From: a virus | Reading direction: 5' to 3' (one strand) | IMG/VR virus record: IMGVR_UViG_3300035181_001425 | Location: 1-41,121 of that record | Length of the DNA: 41,121 bases | Shown here: positions 1 to 15,219 of the stretch, one piece after another | Numbering within the stretch: position 1 is the first letter of the stretch | Layout: the number at the start of each line of letters is the position of its first letter | Notes under the pieces: generated by a model | Told to the model about the DNA's origin: nothing | The model's input: only the letters and a program-made list of their open reading frames with translations | The model's database searches: none | Made by a program: the position numbers and the translations under genes

Positions 1-33
1 TACCTCAAGACACCCGAGGAATGCCAGCACTGG
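1..33. repeat. Terminal direct repeat, left copy (assembly overlap of a circular genome)
   Basis: Bases 1-33 are identical to 41089-41121. The repeat lies inside one continuous reading frame when the ends are joined, so it is most simply the overlap left when a circular molecule is assembled. It is not a biological terminal repeat on this evidence. Confidence 0.9.
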
Positions 34-87
34 ATTCCCGAGGCTAAAACAACGGGACCCGCTATTTCAATCCAGCCCGAAAAGTAA
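1..87 (+). CDS. 3' part of a small Cys-rich protein that starts at 41026 (reads through the circular junction)
   Basis: This is the carboxy-terminal part of a 49-residue protein. Its first 32 codons lie at 41026-41121. The first 33 bases of the window repeat the last 33, so the frame continues without a break from base 34 and ends at TAA 85-87. The tail contributed here is hydrophilic (IPEAKTTGPAISIQPEK). The full description is under the 5' part. No function is recognised. Confidence 0.75.
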   Translation, partial: YLKTPEECQHWIPEAKTTGPAISIQPEK

Positions 88-226
88 AACAACGAATGTC
101 CAGGAGCCTCAGGGTTGCCGCGCACCCGCCAGAACTCGGAAAGAGAGAGCCGAGCCTGGAGTAAGTCGAGGACGGTGGAGGCCGATCACCACCGACGAAA
201 AAGAACGGGCCAAGACGCTTACCAGA
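88..226. other. Convergent intergenic region between the early operon end and integrase
   Basis: This 139-base stretch lies between the last rightward gene and the 3' end of the leftward integrase. A weak reading frame starts at TTG 115 behind AGGAG and would give a 47-residue basic peptide ending at 258, inside the integrase gene. A second ATG frame at 96 gives only 22 residues and has no ribosome binding site. A 6-bp inverted repeat (CGGTGG/CCACCG) sits near 169-193. I do not call a gene here. Confidence 0.4.
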
Positions 227-5044: not shown

Positions 5045-6646
5045 CTACGTGGTGATGGCCATGAAACTGTTGTTGTTGAGCGTTCCCGACCCAAACGGCT
5101 GCAGGCCCGTGTTGGAGAACCCGAAGAGCGTCGTGAGGTCCGTGAGGTTGGCGAGATACATCTGCACCCCTGCCGGATGGGCGATCACCTTGGCCTGGGT
5201 GACCACAGCGATGTCTACGGGGGTGATCGTGAATTCGCAGACGATGAAGGCCGTCATGTTGCCGGAGTCGATCACGTAGGCGCGCCCACGACCCGCGAAG
5301 AGCAGCTGCAGCATTACGTTCATCGCAAAGGCCGAGCACCCGCTGATGTTCGCCAGGGCCTTCGCCAGCAGCATCTGCAAGAAGGCTGGGTCCGGCTGGG
5401 CGAAGTTATTCCCGGTGATAGTTCCACCCAAGAAGGGGGCATCGTTCCATGGCAACCAGCTGTTCGCTTCGATGAACCCGAAATAGGGCTGCAGGGAGGT
5501 ATTTGGCATGTTCAGATTTCGATTCACACCCAGAATCCGTCCCCACACATCCAGGCCATAGCCTTGTGCTGTGTAGATGTTCCAGACCGATGAGTACCAG
5601 GCATTGAAGGGCGAACCCGTCATCAGGCCCGTCATGGTGCCCGTGGGGATCGGCGCGGCGAAGGTCTGATTCAGGAAGTAGGCAGTGACTGGGGACAACA
5701 CGTAATCCGTGACCGTGACCGCCGCGGCATCCGCGAGGATAAAGCTCGTCGCTACGGCCCCGGCATTCTGCTCGATCTGGAAATCCGTGATCGTGATGTC
5801 CGCCGTGCTACCCGTGGAGAATGTCCCACGAAGGCCGAAAATCATGTTCCCGGAAGCACTTCCAGCGGTTCCCATCGGCACCGCGAACCGTTGAAGAGTT
5901 GTGGTCAGGCTCACCGTGGCATTGGCAGAAGAGATCGTGCTTCCACCAACGTAGAGCGTCTGGGCTGATGTATTCGACTTGGCCCAGAAAGACACCACCA
6001 CAGGCTGCCCAACGGTGAGGCCAGAGAGCGCTGGTGTCCTTCTCAGGCTATAGTTCCCGACCGTCGTCCCCCCGCCCTGGTCGAACTGGATCCGTTCCGC
6101 GGTCATGAAGCCTTCTGGCCCCAATCCATAGTTCGCGGTGACCACCGGGTTAGTCCCCGTCCCCGCAATGAGATTTGCCCAGGCAGCATCATCCAGCTTC
6201 TGGCTCTTGCTGCAAAAGTTGGTTCTGGCGGTTGCGTAGAGCAGCTGTGTGCCCTGCCAGTCGGTCTTGGTGATCCCGCCCCCGGTGTAGAGGAAGGTCC
6301 CGGTGACGCCGTCTCCCACCGAAGGGAGAACCCCCGCCAGGGCCACGCCTGCCGCGGGGATCGAACTGAACACAGCGTTGGATGAAACGGCCGAGTTCGG
6401 CGCGGTGATGATGGTTCCGAATGCCGGAATCCCCTGGCCGTTGATCTGCTGGCCAACCACCAGGCTCCCGGATGACACGGAAGACACCGCGAGGATGTTG
6501 CCCGTGATGGATCCAGAGAAGGTGGCCCCAGTGCTGGTGACAGGAATCAGGGACGGATCGACGGCCGTGTTCCACGAATTCAGCAGGGCCTGCAGCACAG
6601 GGCTGTTGGCGTACTGACTGATGATCGTGGATGGCAGATTGATCAT
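5045..6646 (-). CDS. Baseplate protein, DUF2612 family, with inserted module and carbohydrate-binding-like domain
   Basis: DUF2612 proteins occupy the tail-protein-I position next to baseplate J in contractile tails. Residues 1-35 and about 316-533 form the family domain ([14 protein letters not shown] is the hallmark; the end carries the long alpha/beta tail with HPAGVQMY). Between them is an insertion of about 280 residues. Residues 41-100 are a degenerate copy of the Gly/Thr module ([11 protein letters not shown]). Residues about 137-300 look like a jelly-roll carbohydrate-binding domain of the type seen in phage structural proteins: [18 protein letters not shown], then [19 protein letters not shown] and ITDFQIEQN. 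The stop overlaps no downstream start but the start overlaps the upstream stop as ATGA. Sugar binding is inferred. Confidence 0.85.
6347..6526 (-). repeat. Degenerate Gly/Thr-rich module in the DUF2612 protein
   Basis: Residues 41-100: [29 protein letters not shown], but the GTGTGGxGTY part is lost. This is the weakest of the seven copies. Confidence 0.5.
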
Positions 6647-8103
6647 GCGAGCACCAGCGACACGCCCGCGCTATAGAACACGGGGAACTGGTTGATCTGC
6701 TGGAGCTGGCTTTGGGCGGTCGGAGTCGGAGCCGTTCCCACCTGCACGTTCATGATGATGGCGCCTGGGAGGATCTTTTGAATCGTCTGGTAGAACCGGC
6801 TCCCGAAGACTGTCCCTCCGATTGCAGCCGGCGCGCCGCCATCGGTCCCAGAGAAGGCCATGCCCAGACCGGTCGTCGGGTTCTGCAGCAGGGTCAGAGC
6901 GTTCGATACCGGGTTGGAGGCAGCGGCCAGCGTGACCGTGATGTAGATGGGGACCTGCTGCGGGATCGTGTACTGCACGTTGTAGCTGGGGTAGGGGATC
7001 GCATAGCTCGTATCCTGGACCACCACCGTCCAGGAGGAAGTCATCGTCTCGGTTCCTGCCAGGGGAATCGTTCCCACGGAAGAGGACAAGGTGTAGGTGC
7101 CTGCCCCTCCTGTGCCGGTGCCCAGGCCAGTGATGATGAGGCCTGCGGGGACGTTGGTCCCGTAGACCGTCTGGCCCACAGCCAACACGCCACTGGAGGG
7201 CGCGCCCGTGACCGTGAGCACGCTGCCTGCAATGGAGCCCGTGAAGATCGCGCTGGGCGTGTAGTTGCAGCCGATGTCCTTCTTGCTGCAGATGGCGCGG
7301 GCAATGGAAGCGGGATCGCCGCCCTGCACCGCCACGTAGCAGCTGTTCGGAATGAGCGTGAAGGGCATGCCGTTGGTGATGGAAGTGGAGGCTAGGTTTG
7401 TGCCGTTCTCCGTGGCATAAACGGAAAGCGGGATGTTCGGGGGCGTGAGGGTCGCGCCGGAGGCCAGGACGGCGGCCTTGATAGAGGGAAGCGAGCCGAT
7501 GGCGTTCACGGCCACGGACTGCTGACGCCGAGCCTCAAACTGCTGCTGGTTCTCCACCAGTGCCCCGTAGGACGCGAAGGCCGCCCCGGTGATGCTGTCC
7601 CAGCCTGGGGTGGTCTGGTAGATCGTGAGTGGCCCTGTGAACGCGATGGCGCCTGCCACCTGATTCGAGAAGGTCAGGAGGAGGGACCCCCCAGCCGGAA
7701 TCGTTCCTCCTGCGCAGGTGTAGAGGTTGCCTGCGGCATCCTTCGCCACTGGGACCCCGCCAGGAATCACTGTGCCGGCCAAACCGATGCAGCTCCCCGT
7801 GACCAGGGTGGACGTGGCCGGTTTCCGGGTCATGAAGTAGATGTTCCCGATCGCATCCTGCATGCGGCCCTGGGCGTACTGCGGGTCGATCTGGCTGATG
7901 ACCTGGAGGAACTGGGAGTTGCAGTCGCTGATGATGGCCGCCAGGCTGCTGGCAAGCTGCCCCTGGGGCGTGCTGAGACCGGGGTTGAGCCCACCACCGA
8001 AGGCCGCATTCATGTCAGCCTGCACACCCGCCAGCAGGGCCGCGTCTGAAGGCGCGGTGAAGCCTGCGGTGCCAAGCGTGGGGAATGGGACGTTGGTGGC
8101 CAT
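6643..8103 (-). CDS. Baseplate J-like protein
   Basis: Wedge protein of the contractile-tail baseplate (family of P2 gpJ and Mu gp47). The amino end has the typical [26 protein letters not shown] and [23 protein letters not shown] helices. The stretch [28 protein letters not shown] is the conserved hinge, and the end carries the beta-rich PIYITVTLA and [17 protein letters not shown] segments. Residues 286-355 are an inserted Gly/Thr module ([26 protein letters not shown]) placed in the loop before WTVVVQD. The gene overlaps the DUF2612 gene by ATGA and follows the gp25-like wedge gene, the standard baseplate order. Confidence 0.9.
7039..7248 (-). repeat. Gly/Thr-rich insertion module in baseplate J
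   Basis: Residues 286-355: [15 protein letters not shown], then [17 protein letters not shown] and [16 protein letters not shown] near-canonical copy. Confidence 0.7.
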
Positions 8104-9147: not shown

Positions 9148-10020
9148 TCAGTTCCCCACCCAGCTCGCGCTGACCTTGGACAACCACTTGCCGCCCGGGT
9201 TCTCGGCTTCCAGGTGATGGTGCAGCCCGTTCACGCGCCAGGTGCCGGAGGCCACGGAGATCTCAGACTGGACGTTGATGAGGCCGCCCAGCTTGATCCC
9301 GGGGTTGTAGAGGCATTCCAGCTTCAGGCCCTTCTTGTCGAAGACCGGGTACTCCTTCAGGCCGGTGGCCGCAGAGATCAGCGGCACGGTGCCAGGGCGA
9401 GCAGCGCCGCGCGGGCAGATGAACAGGGTGCCGTCATCGATGCCGAACTCGATGTTGGCCGCAGCGGCCACGGCCGCAGCCTGCTGGAAGGCGGAGCCAG
9501 AGAGGTAGGGGCTCACCAGCTGGGTCGTCACACCGTTGTCTTCGAAGGCGTAACCCATCTGGGCGGCCAGGGAAGACATCAGGCTCGAGACCGAGGCGCC
9601 GCCCTTGAAGCTCTTGGGCGTCACGGGCGCCAGGGCCGGGTAGAAGCCCTCCAGGGCCTCCAGGTGGAAGTAGAGGTTGGGTGGGCTCTGGTAGCTCGTC
9701 CAGGCCCCTGTCACCTCACCCTGGAAGGCTACGGCCATGCCTGAGGCATCCCCGGCCAGGAGCTGCACGAGGCTCTTGTGGACCGCTAGGGGCTTAGCAC
9801 TCTTCGCAGGCAGCGTCGTGAGCGCATTCATCTGGGTGGAGGTCATCCCATAGATCTTCAGCTTCAGCTTGTTCTTGGAGGGATGGCCCCCCTTCTCCAC
9901 CTCGGCGCCCATGCGCAGGCCGGTGAGCTGCACCGTGTTGTTCGTGCCGTCGAAGGTCCCCGAGGTCAACGTGAGGTTGGCCTGGAGAATCTTCTTGGTG
10001 AAGCTGGAGCCGGTGGTCAT
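9148..10020 (-). CDS. Baseplate hub protein (gp27/gpD-like)
   Basis: A 290-residue protein that by position should be the hub on which the spike sits, at the end of the tail tube. It begins with a beta-rich tube-like domain (LTLTSGTFDGTNNTVQLTGL), has a second tube-like domain near 100-130, and a middle helical part (SVSSLMSSLAAQMGYAFEDN, then FQQAAAVAAAANIEFGIDDGTLFICPR) that matches the T4 gp27 / P2 gpD / Mu gp44 style. The end (WRVNGLHHHLE) is also typical. The order plug-hub-spike-gp25-J is that of other contractile phages. Confidence 0.8.
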   Translation of the reverse strand: MTTGSSFTKKILQANLTLTSGTFDGTNNTVQLTGLRMGAEVEKGGHPSKNKLKLKIYGMTSTQMNALTTLPAKSAKPLAVHKSLVQLLAGDASGMAVAFQGEVTGAWTSYQSPPNLYFHLEALEGFYPALAPVTPKSFKGGASVSSLMSSLAAQMGYAFEDNGVTTQLVSPYLSGSAFQQAAAVAAAANIEFGIDDGTLFICPRGAARPGTVPLISAATGLKEYPVFDKKGLKLECLYNPGIKLGGLINVQSEISVASGTWRVNGLHHHLEAENPGGKWLSKVSASWVGN

Positions 10021-10024
10021 GGGG

Positions 10025-10333
10025 TCACTTTTGGTAGATCGAGATGGTGCAGTTCTGGCCGCCCAGCGTGATATCGAACTGCTGGGCGGGGATGGCCTGG
10101 AGGGGGATCTGAACCGTGTCCTGGCCGTCCTGGTAGTAGAGGAGTATGTAGCGACCGGTCTTCAGGTCGAGTCCCGGATAGAGCGGATCTGCGCTCCCCT
10201 GCATGTCCGCAAAGGCGAGCGTTCCGATGAAGCCCAGATAGGGGAACGAACCGATCTGAACGCGGTTCAGACAGGGCACCCCTTGCCAGAGGGGCGTGCC
10301 GTTGATTGCCAGATCGCAGTAGAGGTTGGGCAT
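10025..10333 (-). CDS. Baseplate plug protein, apparently circularly permuted
   Basis: A 102-residue protein with both halves of the phage baseplate plug family (Pam3 gp18-like, DUF6983-like), but in reversed order. From memory of the family, the usual order is IPLxAIPxQ-LGGQNCxIxxYQK first, then LYxDLxxNGxPL, YLGFxGDLAFxDxQG and GRYxLxYL. Here the protein starts at PNLYCDLAINGTPL, runs to GRYILLYY at about residue 67, crosses a linker QDGQDTVQ, and ends with IPLQAIPAQQ and GGQNCTISIYQK. The start is fixed by a TGATG overlap with the upstream gene. Position between the Dit-like and hub genes supports the plug role. Confidence 0.8.
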   Translation of the reverse strand: MPNLYCDLAINGTPLWQGVPCLNRVQIGSFPYLGFIGTLAFADMQGSADPLYPGLDLKTGRYILLYYQDGQDTVQIPLQAIPAQQFDITLGGQNCTISIYQK

Positions 10334-10866
10334 CAGTCGTTCCTCGCCCGGTCCATGACGTTCGCCCAGGTCAATGGCGGAGGCGGCGGAGGCCCAGCTG
10401 GATGGCAGACCTGCATTTTCCCGTTCACCTGCTTCGAAGCAGATCCAGGGCTCTTGGGATGCGGGATGGTGACCGCGGTGTAGGTCGGCGTCACCTCGCG
10501 AACCTCGATCAACGCGATGTCCACCACCAGCAGGTTCAGCCCGTTGTCAGCCGATTGGCTGTAGTCGTAGCTTTCCATGGTGACGTTGAGGTAGACGCAG
10601 GTCGGGGTCACCACGTTGTAGAGGTTCGGCTGGCTCAGCTCACTGCCCATGGCCGCCTGAAAAGCCGCGATTCGATCCTTGCCGCCCACCGCCAGGCGCA
10701 CCTTGGGCTTGTTGGGTTCGTTCACCTTGTTGTAGCTGGCGAAGCTGCCATGCTCCACGGGGAAAGTGCTGGTCTTCACGTTCGCGGTGTACTTCAGATC
10801 CACGAGGGAATCGACGTCAAAGACCTCGTTCCCTTCCAGATCGAAGATGCCCCAGCCGCGCGCCAT
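10333..10866 (-). CDS. Dit-like phage tail hub protein
   Basis: A 177-residue tail protein of the Dit-like family of contractile phages, forming a ring between tube and baseplate. The segment KTSTFPVEHGSFASYNKVNEP with KVRLAVGG resembles the conserved 'evehp ... inDhv ... P' region of that family, and NLYNVVTPTCVYLNVTMESYDY its middle. The last 25 residues carry a run of seven prolines (GPPPPPPL). It follows the tape measure gene with a 1-base overlap. Confidence 0.75.
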   Translation of the reverse strand: MARGWGIFDLEGNEVFDVDSLVDLKYTANVKTSTFPVEHGSFASYNKVNEPNKPKVRLAVGGKDRIAAFQAAMGSELSQPNLYNVVTPTCVYLNVTMESYDYSQSADNGLNLLVVDIALIEVREVTPTYTAVTIPHPKSPGSASKQVNGKMQVCHPAGPPPPPPLTWANVMDRARND

Positions 10867-13503: not shown

Positions 13504-15219
13504 CTACTGAATCGAGATGGAGGCGAGGTTCAGCTGATTGACGGAGCCACCGTCCATCCACCAGAGGGTGCAAGGCGGGCTCAAACGGTTGTTGCGCTGG
13601 TTCGCGCTGGCCGGGAGCACCTGCAGGTAGTAGCCGTTGTTCGCCAAGGCGGGATCGATGGTCAGGCCCGCGGCGCTGTTCACGTTGGCGATCTGCAGGG
13701 CGGTGAGCACCACGCCGGTGTTGATCACCCCCGCATTGAGCGCAGCCGTGATCGGCCCCAGGGCGGCGGCCTTGATCATGCTATAGCCCTGCGGATTGTA
13801 AGGAATGGCGTTGAGGTTGGTGAACATGTTCACGAGGGCCAACTGCAGGGAGCTGTTGAGCCAGATCGCATTCACGTAGGAATCCAGCCAGCCGAAGGCG
13901 CCGGAAAGCTGCCCGTTCCAGAAGAACTGGTTCGAGGCGTTGGCTGTGGCCCAGTTCCCATAGAAGTTCGTGCCGTTGGCGATGGCATTGGCCGAGGAGA
14001 CCGGATCGTTCACCGTGGGGGTGATGCCGGTTCCGCTCTTGTAGGCGATGGCCGCGCGGCCGTTCTTGGCGTTGAAGTTGATGGATGCCACGAAGCCGAG
14101 CACGAAGGCCGCGGCGTTGGGATCCTGGTAGACCGCGCAGGTGCCGCCCAGGCTGTTCAGCTTCGTGTAGTAGCTGATGCAGGTAGTGCTGGCATTGCTG
14201 GACACGATCGTGGGGTCCGAGTCGTAGGGAACATAGACAAACTGCCCACCCGTGCCCGCGTTCCAGGTGGCGAAGGCCTGCTTATCGGCGATGACCGGTT
14301 CGAAGCAGGTGGAGAAGGTCGCCCAGTTGCTCGTGAAGACCGCCAGGGCCGTCATGAAGGTGCCGGGGACGTTGGCGGCGCTGCCCTGCGACAGGGTGCC
14401 CACGCCAAGGCCCAGGGTGGTCGCGTTGGTGCCGCCGCAGACCGTGATGGTGGAACCGGCGCCGGTGGTGCCAGAGGTGATCACGAAGGCGTTGAAGGCG
14501 CTGGACCAGGTCACGGTGGATCCAGCTGTGCCGCCACTGAAGGCGAAGGCCGTCTGGATCAGCGAAGCCGCATTGCTGAAGCTGGACGCCGAGGAAAGGT
14601 TCAGGGCCGCGATGGAGACCAGGGTACCGTTGATGGTGACGGTCAGCGTGCCACTGGTGATCGCCTGCAACTGCGCCAGCGTCAGGGAAGGCATGCTGGT
14701 GCCACGGAAGAAGGCGGGGATGGCGTAGGAGGCATAGCGGCCGAACAGGAGCGCTGTGGGCTTCACGGTGGAGCCCGTGTAGCCGTTGAAGTAGACGGCG
14801 GCCATCTGGCTTTCCAGGCAGTTCGAGGTCATGGCGCTGGCGGTGGCCTGGGTGAATCCGGGGCCGGAGATGGTCACCGTGCCGATGCCCGTGCCAGTGC
14901 TGTAGGTGCCCAAAGCGGTGATGTAGGTCCCGGGAGGGACGCCCACGGCGCCGAGGGACTGAAGCTCCTGGCCCACGGCGATCGTGCCCGACAGGGTCTG
15001 GGTGATCGTCAGGGTATTGGCCACGCAGGTGGCCAGGATCGAGGCGTTGTACTGCCCGAAGTAGGCCTGGACGCTGGCCAGGGTGGGGAAGCTCACGGGC
15101 GCGCCCACGGGCAGCACCGGGTTCTGCGAGAGCAGCAGGCCGTTCAGCGCCAGCGGATTCCCACCAGAAGCCAGGACGGCAGGCACAACGGAGATGATGG
15201 TGGAAATCGGAATCGACAT
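13504..15219 (-). CDS. Contractile tail sheath protein (DUF3383)
   Basis: Sheath subunit that contracts to drive the tube through the envelope. The 571 residues match DUF3383: LNGLLLSQNPVLPVG, VQAYFGQYN near 50-58, AVYFNGYTGS near 141, a tandem-domain centre, and a beta-rich end (DGGSVNQLNLASISIQ) that would form the interlocking handshake. Residues 58-134 are an inserted Gly/Thr module, exactly between YFG and the E-x-x-AAVYF motif that are adjacent in ordinary family members. The presence of this gene makes the phage a myovirus. Confidence 0.9.
   Translation of the reverse strand: MSIPISTIISVVPAVLASGGNPLALNGLLLSQNPVLPVGAPVSFPTLASVQAYFGQYNASILATCVANTLTITQTLSGTIAVGQELQSLGAVGVPPGTYITALGTYSTGTGIGTVTISGPGFTQATASAMTSNCLESQMAAVYFNGYTGSTVKPTALLFGRYASYAIPAFFRGTSMPSLTLAQLQAITSGTLTVTINGTLVSIAALNLSSASSFSNAASLIQTAFAFSGGTAGSTVTWSSAFNAFVITSGTTGAGSTITVCGGTNATTLGLGVGTLSQGSAANVPGTFMTALAVFTSNWATFSTCFEPVIADKQAFATWNAGTGGQFVYVPYDSDPTIVSSNASTTCISYYTKLNSLGGTCAVYQDPNAAAFVLGFVASINFNAKNGRAAIAYKSGTGITPTVNDPVSSANAIANGTNFYGNWATANASNQFFWNGQLSGAFGWLDSYVNAIWLNSSLQLALVNMFTNLNAIPYNPQGYSMIKAAALGPITAALNAGVINTGVVLTALQIANVNSAAGLTIDPALANNGYYLQVLPASANQRNNRLSPPCTLWWMDGGSVNQLNLASISIQ
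14818..15048 (-). repeat. Gly/Thr-rich insertion module in the tail sheath
   Basis: Residues 58-134: ANTLTITQTLSGTIAVGQEL, PPGTYITALGTYSTGTGIGTVTIS. It would project from the sheath surface. This copy is more diverged than those in the cement protein. Confidence 0.6.

Follow-up and report, generated by a model that had tools for sequence, protein, structure and literature searches.

The window analysed here, meaning the whole 41,121-nucleotide stretch of IMG/VR virus record IMGVR_UViG_3300035181_001425, carries a cluster of genes like the tail clusters of XM1, Pam3, and E217, that is, of a simple contractile tail. In the direction of transcription, the cluster encodes a sheath protein (DUF3383), the tube-like E217_Gp32, an assembly chaperone, a tape measure, a Dit-like ring protein, a plug, a hub (E217_GP41), a spike, a gp25-like wedge protein, a large wedge protein, and a DUF2612 protein. 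The spike contains an Apex motif that scores slightly under the Pfam cut-off, and we take the sheath and gp25-like identities from gene order and family knowledge. The DUF2612 protein (5045-6646) and the large wedge protein (6643-8103) have a stretch in common (50% identity over 36 aa, E=2.9e-4), and the sheath protein (13504-15219) contains a stretch that resembles it by eye only.

In the baseplate cluster, the plug occupies the slot of PF22479 plugs, with the tube-like ring protein before it and the hub after it. XM1 gp12 is placed likewise, after the ring protein gp11 and ahead of the hub gp13. The features discussed below are as follows.

10333..10866, minus strand: Dit-like baseplate ring protein in the position of XM1 gp11, upstream neighbour of the plug (PF21821 Dit_like, E=2.2e-8; 1-nt overlap)
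10025..10333, minus strand: circularly permuted baseplate plug/adaptor of the Pam3 gp18 / XM1 gp12 / E217 gp33 family, 102 aa (PF22479, phrog_349, doubled profile, AF2)
10127..10327, minus strand: ordinary C-terminal half, here first, aa 3-69, columns 33-96, predicted strands E4-10 E13-20 E38-43 E62-67 (66.3 bits; AF2; Pam3 superposition)
10109..10135, minus strand: junction YQDGQDTVQ, aa 67-75, ordinary C-terminus joined to ordinary N-terminus (9 residues; least constrained part)
10028..10111, minus strand: ordinary N-terminal half, here last, aa 75-102, columns 3-30, predicted strands E74-76 E83-90 E93-101 (31.7 bits; AF2; lowest dN)
9148..10020, minus strand: baseplate hub, downstream neighbour of the plug (PF22759 E217_GP41, E=2.7e-17; phrog_196, E=6.3e-55)

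The plug ORF runs on the minus strand from an ATG at 10333 to a stop at 10027-10025 and encodes a protein of 102 aa (MPNLYCDLAINGTPLW...GRYILLYYQDGQDTVQIPLQAIPAQQFDITLGGQNCTISIYQK). As a preliminary description of this DNA had held, both ends are fixed by tight gene junctions: the ATG shares 1 nt with the stop of the gene before it (TGATG), and the ATG of the hub gene lies 4 nt past the plug stop. Thus, there is no room for an extra half at either end of the ORF. RNA structure was considered as an explanation of the plug/hub gene junction and is unsupported (z=+1.84).

Pfam PF22479 (Pam3_gp18) matches the plug with E=1.8e-13 and 51.2 bits, above the gathering cut-off of 24.2, and PHROG 349 (phrog_349) matches it with E=4.2e-14. 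Each match is split into two stretches, and the better PF22479 stretch places residues 4-68 of the protein on profile positions 37-99. PHROG classes phrog_349 as 'head and packaging', yet its solved members are baseplate proteins. In the ordinary order of PF22479, the half with IPL..Q..GGQNCTI comes first and the half with LYxDL..RYxLxY second; in the window plug they are reversed. A comparison profile built from ordinary-order proteins only places residues 3-69 on columns 33-96 (66.3 bits) and residues 75-102 on columns 3-30 (31.7 bits). When this profile is written twice in tandem, aa 3-102 align as one domain, unbroken across the junction of the two copies (columns 33-129 of 198, 109.3 bits). 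The best of 2000 shuffles of the window plug reaches 8.7 bits on the doubled profile, and chance is therefore excluded. This permutation-aware alignment to the Pam3 gp18-like family, which the preliminary description had called for, confirms its observation that both family halves are present in reversed order. Nor is the order seen in the window the family standard: the N-half precedes the C-half in every ordinary protein examined, including all relatives examined full length (for example L011, IPLNAIPNQQFTVTLDGQICQIRLYWRYDNLYCDLSV...TRFVLCF, which has both halves in the other order). The halves of the ordinary family thus lie reversed within one ORF, as in natural circular permutants, and the window plug is a homologous permuted variant rather than an ordinary member of PF22479.

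Structure prediction points to the same arrangement. The AF2 model of the window plug (pLDDT 90.6, pTM 0.80), whose input alignment held ordinary-order fragments so that it is not independent of the ordinary fold, contains seven strands (listed above). The model of an ordinary relative (pLDDT 94.1, pTM 0.85) also has seven (E2-4 E11-18 E21-30 E33-40 E43-51 E68-73 E89-94), and the two sets correspond one-to-one after a circular shift of three. The window plug is thus predicted to have the PF22479-type seven-strand beta-sandwich (as in 7yfz_h / 8env_G). Comparison with known plugs, also proposed earlier, supports the shift in the predicted structure: residues 1..72 of the window model, and only these, superpose on 33..100 of the Pam3 plug 7yfz_h (Z 5.3, rmsd 2.1, 68 residues), and the offset is the same for Pa193 (9b45_A), E217 (8env_G), and Bas63 (9ndy_O). 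Over these four solved plugs, residues 1-74 fall on chain residues 31-110 with Z 4.4-5.3, values that are tied with those of unrelated beta proteins in the list and count only together with the sequence evidence. A match confined to residues 1-74 is expected because the aligner is sequential and the protein a circular permutant. The ordinary model, in contrast, aligns end to end with 7yfz_h (1..99 to 1..100, Z 14.1, rmsd 1.8) and over nearly the whole chain with the solved plugs of Pa193, Pam3, Bas63, XM1, E217, and PhiTE (Z 10.8-14.6). Foldseek with the permuted model gave zero PDB matches at E<=0.001, again as expected of a sequential aligner. Compared by sequence with the solved structures, the permuted protein had chance matches only (E at least 0.63), whereas the ordinary sister sequence found the family.

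Pam3 gp18 is therefore a relative of the window plug in sequence family and beta-sandwich that differs in order: the first 72 residues of the window plug correspond to Pam3 33-100, and its last strands to the first ones of Pam3. XM1 gp12 (7kh1_A4), E217 gp33 (8env_G), Pa193 gp34 (9b45_A), and the plugs of Bas63 (9ndy) and PhiTE (9cuy_M) share the fold family of the ordinary model and are likewise of ordinary order. XM1 gp12 was described by its authors as unique to XM1 (PMC10457771). Given its match to the ordinary plug model (Z 12.5), it appears to belong with the Pam3 gp18 / E217 gp33 / Pa193 gp34 plugs.

A circular permutation also asks that the old termini can be joined. Between the two matched halves lie only residues 70-74, five in all, so the ordinary terminal gap can be at most about 23 angstroms, and the AF2 model closes this link at a pLDDT of about 91. 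The termini of the ordinary plug would thus be adjacent, allowing the permuted fold to close. The new ends are predicted to lie in the beta-hairpin between ordinary strands 3 and 4.

The window plug is not alone. Viral contigs were scanned with ordinary, permuted, or sister-group queries, and order was classified by separate half-profiles. The scans gave 12 distinct permuted plugs, including that of the window, spread over 14 records, of which 13 are IMG/VR contigs other than the window, along with more than 50 distinct plugs of ordinary order. On the doubled profile, all 11 permuted plugs tested form a single domain, and every cut lies between columns 30 and 32-34; the twelfth, L209, has the same first and last residues by inspection. 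The permuted gene follows the ring protein throughout and precedes the hub in all but one case. Two further candidates, L082 and L104, looked full length in tblastn and proved to be of ordinary order. No permuted plug was found among 50,697 phage records, solved structures, or the literature searched. Among the matches listed for the phage collection, none was full length in a single piece, the best being in two pieces or of one half; in a plasmid collection, all matches were partial and fell short of 80% query coverage. In 395 genomes of the phylum of a Bilophila metagenome-assembled genome (MAG), matches occurred in two, both of ordinary order (the Bilophila one, and another in two pieces).

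Across the whole gene, dN is below dS for every pair with usable dS, and the permuted plug gene is under purifying selection. The junction (aa 67-75) is the least constrained segment of the plug, and the ordinary N-half has the lowest dN among close permuted relatives. Since the sources are uncultivated viral contigs, one might suspect that assembly or annotation had produced the swap, the gene being split or chimeric or its start wrongly set. Against this stand 12 distinct sequences on 14 records with a common swapped order, the coding constraint, the tight junctions, and, in the window, the lack of room for ordinary halves outside the plug ORF; we give an artefact next to no credence. The best explanation of the evidence as a whole, to which we assign a probability of roughly 0.93 from sequence comparison and modelling, is that the window plug, a small beta-sandwich plug/adaptor of contractile-tail baseplates, is a genuine natural circular permutant and is functional.

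The hub protein, which is not involved in the permutation, served as an independent phylogenetic marker. Its identity to the window hub is 57-79% in permuted phages versus 33-38% in four ordinary ones. On the hub tree, the permuted phages form one clade with support of 100/96 (95/85 when the divergent L209 and more ordinary rows are added), and the ordinary-order L011 and L022/L033 are its sister (99/95-96). The plug tree, for which the halves were re-ordered for alignment, sets the permuted plugs apart by one branch, weakly (57/0, or 88/87 without L045), and groups L011, L022, and L033 with them as the hub tree does. L011 is a gut contig, and L033 comes from the Bilophila MAG. These prophage or phage plugs, nearest to the permuted ones on both trees, have the NLYCDL strand in common with them; in the ordinary order this strand lies within the chain, at the hairpin from which the permuted form starts. 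The permuted phages are thus one clade nested among ordinary-order phages, and since they are monophyletic on the hub tree we infer one origin. The trees are midpoint-rooted, so the direction of change is read from this nesting and from the solved plugs, which are of ordinary order. On an unrooted tree there is one label change, and counts of changes cannot separate gain from loss; the permuted order could then be ancestral and the common one derived. However, under midpoint rooting the permuted plugs are one shallow clade inside the ordinary ones, and the solved plugs of six phages (Pam3, XM1, E217, Pa193, Bas63, PhiTE) align in order with the ordinary model, making an ancestral permuted order very improbable.

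How a single change of this kind could arise is suggested by the linker. The preliminary description had the halves joined by a new linker, QDGQDTVQ. The joining holds, but the novelty is not evident: permuted linkers have 9-10 residues, and the ordinary C-terminal tail and N-terminal head together have a median of 9.5, a few of the ordinary rows being trimmed short. In the closest ordinary relatives, tail plus head is 10 (L022/L033) or 11 (L011), and the L022 tail VEEGETL resembles the window YQDGQDT by eye. Judged by sequence, the linker need not be new; its length is as expected of an in-frame tandem fusion. In the putative route, an ordinary plug gene would have been duplicated in tandem and fused in frame, once; the first N-half and the last C-half would then have been lost, so that translation would begin at a new ATG at (N)LYCDL and end past the first strand of the hairpin. 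One contig, L021, contains tandem plugs, both already permuted. Directly upstream of its plug lies a 56-codon mini-plug ORF (L021:3841-4008, MICCDLILNGSQVWAGVPPLVGVPNSSQFNIVLGQQSCVLVLYNR...), which is permuted with its middle deleted. The viral-contig scans yielded no ORF with three halves, and thus no fused N-C-N or C-N-C intermediate among the plugs scanned. That no N-C-N intermediate was seen would fit recombination of half-genes or fusion of a split gene instead, rivals that concern the origin only. The agreement of linker length with tail plus head and the tandem pair in L021 speak against these routes, which we consider unlikely, though less so than the alternatives above.

The role of the plug can be judged from solved baseplates. 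In XM1, the gp11 ring holds gp12 and wraps its C-terminus round it, and the wedge protein gp16 covers it. Each wedge has a single gp12, placed between the gp11 ring and the dimers of gp16, and the copies do not touch one another (PMC10457771). Six copies lie between ring and wedges for both XM1 gp12 (PMC10457771) and E217 gp33 (PMC10329688), and the latter is an adaptor that is lost on contraction (PMC10329688). By analogy, six copies of the permuted plug would be sandwiched between the wedge dimers and the Dit-like ring that lies beneath the tail tube, where they would help to hold the wedges to the hub before contraction. The same role is likely in the window phage because of the position of the gene, the constraint on both halves, and the presence of only one plug-like match in the record.

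In two of the 12 permuted plugs the protein continues into a large C-terminal fusion, of 607 aa in L021 and 469 aa in L209. The L021 extension resembles collagen and matches tail-fibre families, and that of L209 has no match in Pfam. The L021 gene (3998-6115) encodes a full permuted plug and the collagen-like tail-fibre protein, 705 aa in total, with the hub displaced about 4 kb downstream; in L209 (3001-4704), a permuted plug is extended by about 470 aa, and the hub gene comes directly after it. Of 53 ordinary plugs, none has a large fusion or runs more than 43 residues past the core. The difference (2/11 permuted versus 0/53 ordinary, Fisher p=0.027) is weak, since related rows were treated as independent. 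The two extensions, and the tail-fibre families matched in L021, could mean that the permuted protein now serves chiefly to anchor fibres or other appendages, having given up its work as a plug to some other component. That reading is quite improbable, however, as 10 of the 12, including the window, occupy the plug slot without an extension, and the window record has no second plug-like match. With the plug role kept, the permutation may, speculatively, have exposed a C-terminus suited to appendages. A stronger form of this idea, tentative and in our judgement rather doubtful, is that moving the C-terminus to the strand 3/4 hairpin turned an enclosed adaptor into a mount to which fibres or other domains could be fused. 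If so, phages such as L021 and L209 would have a site for attachment at the baseplate that is missing from ordinary plugs.

The literature search, which was incomplete, turned up no mention of a permuted plug. The plug family is known; its permuted form appears to be new and, by sequence and model, is computationally well supported. A natural topological permutation in a structural protein of a tailed phage is known from the BPP-1 major capsid protein, but there the swap is non-circular and there is no recognisable sequence similarity to ordinary relatives, so that its origin is obscured (PMC3863775); in the window plug the swap is circular and the relatives are clear. Whole-length searches catch only one half of permuted plugs, which matters for annotation. 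Circular permutants of virion proteins are rarely met with unpermuted relatives still recognisable by sequence. For the plug, the event can be placed on a tree with an identified sister lineage, and the protein does its work within a crowded assembly; therefore, tolerance of a change of topology in a core phage part can be tested directly. Two questions follow: do contacts at the termini, both old and new, make a difference, and does the permutation give new sites for fusion?
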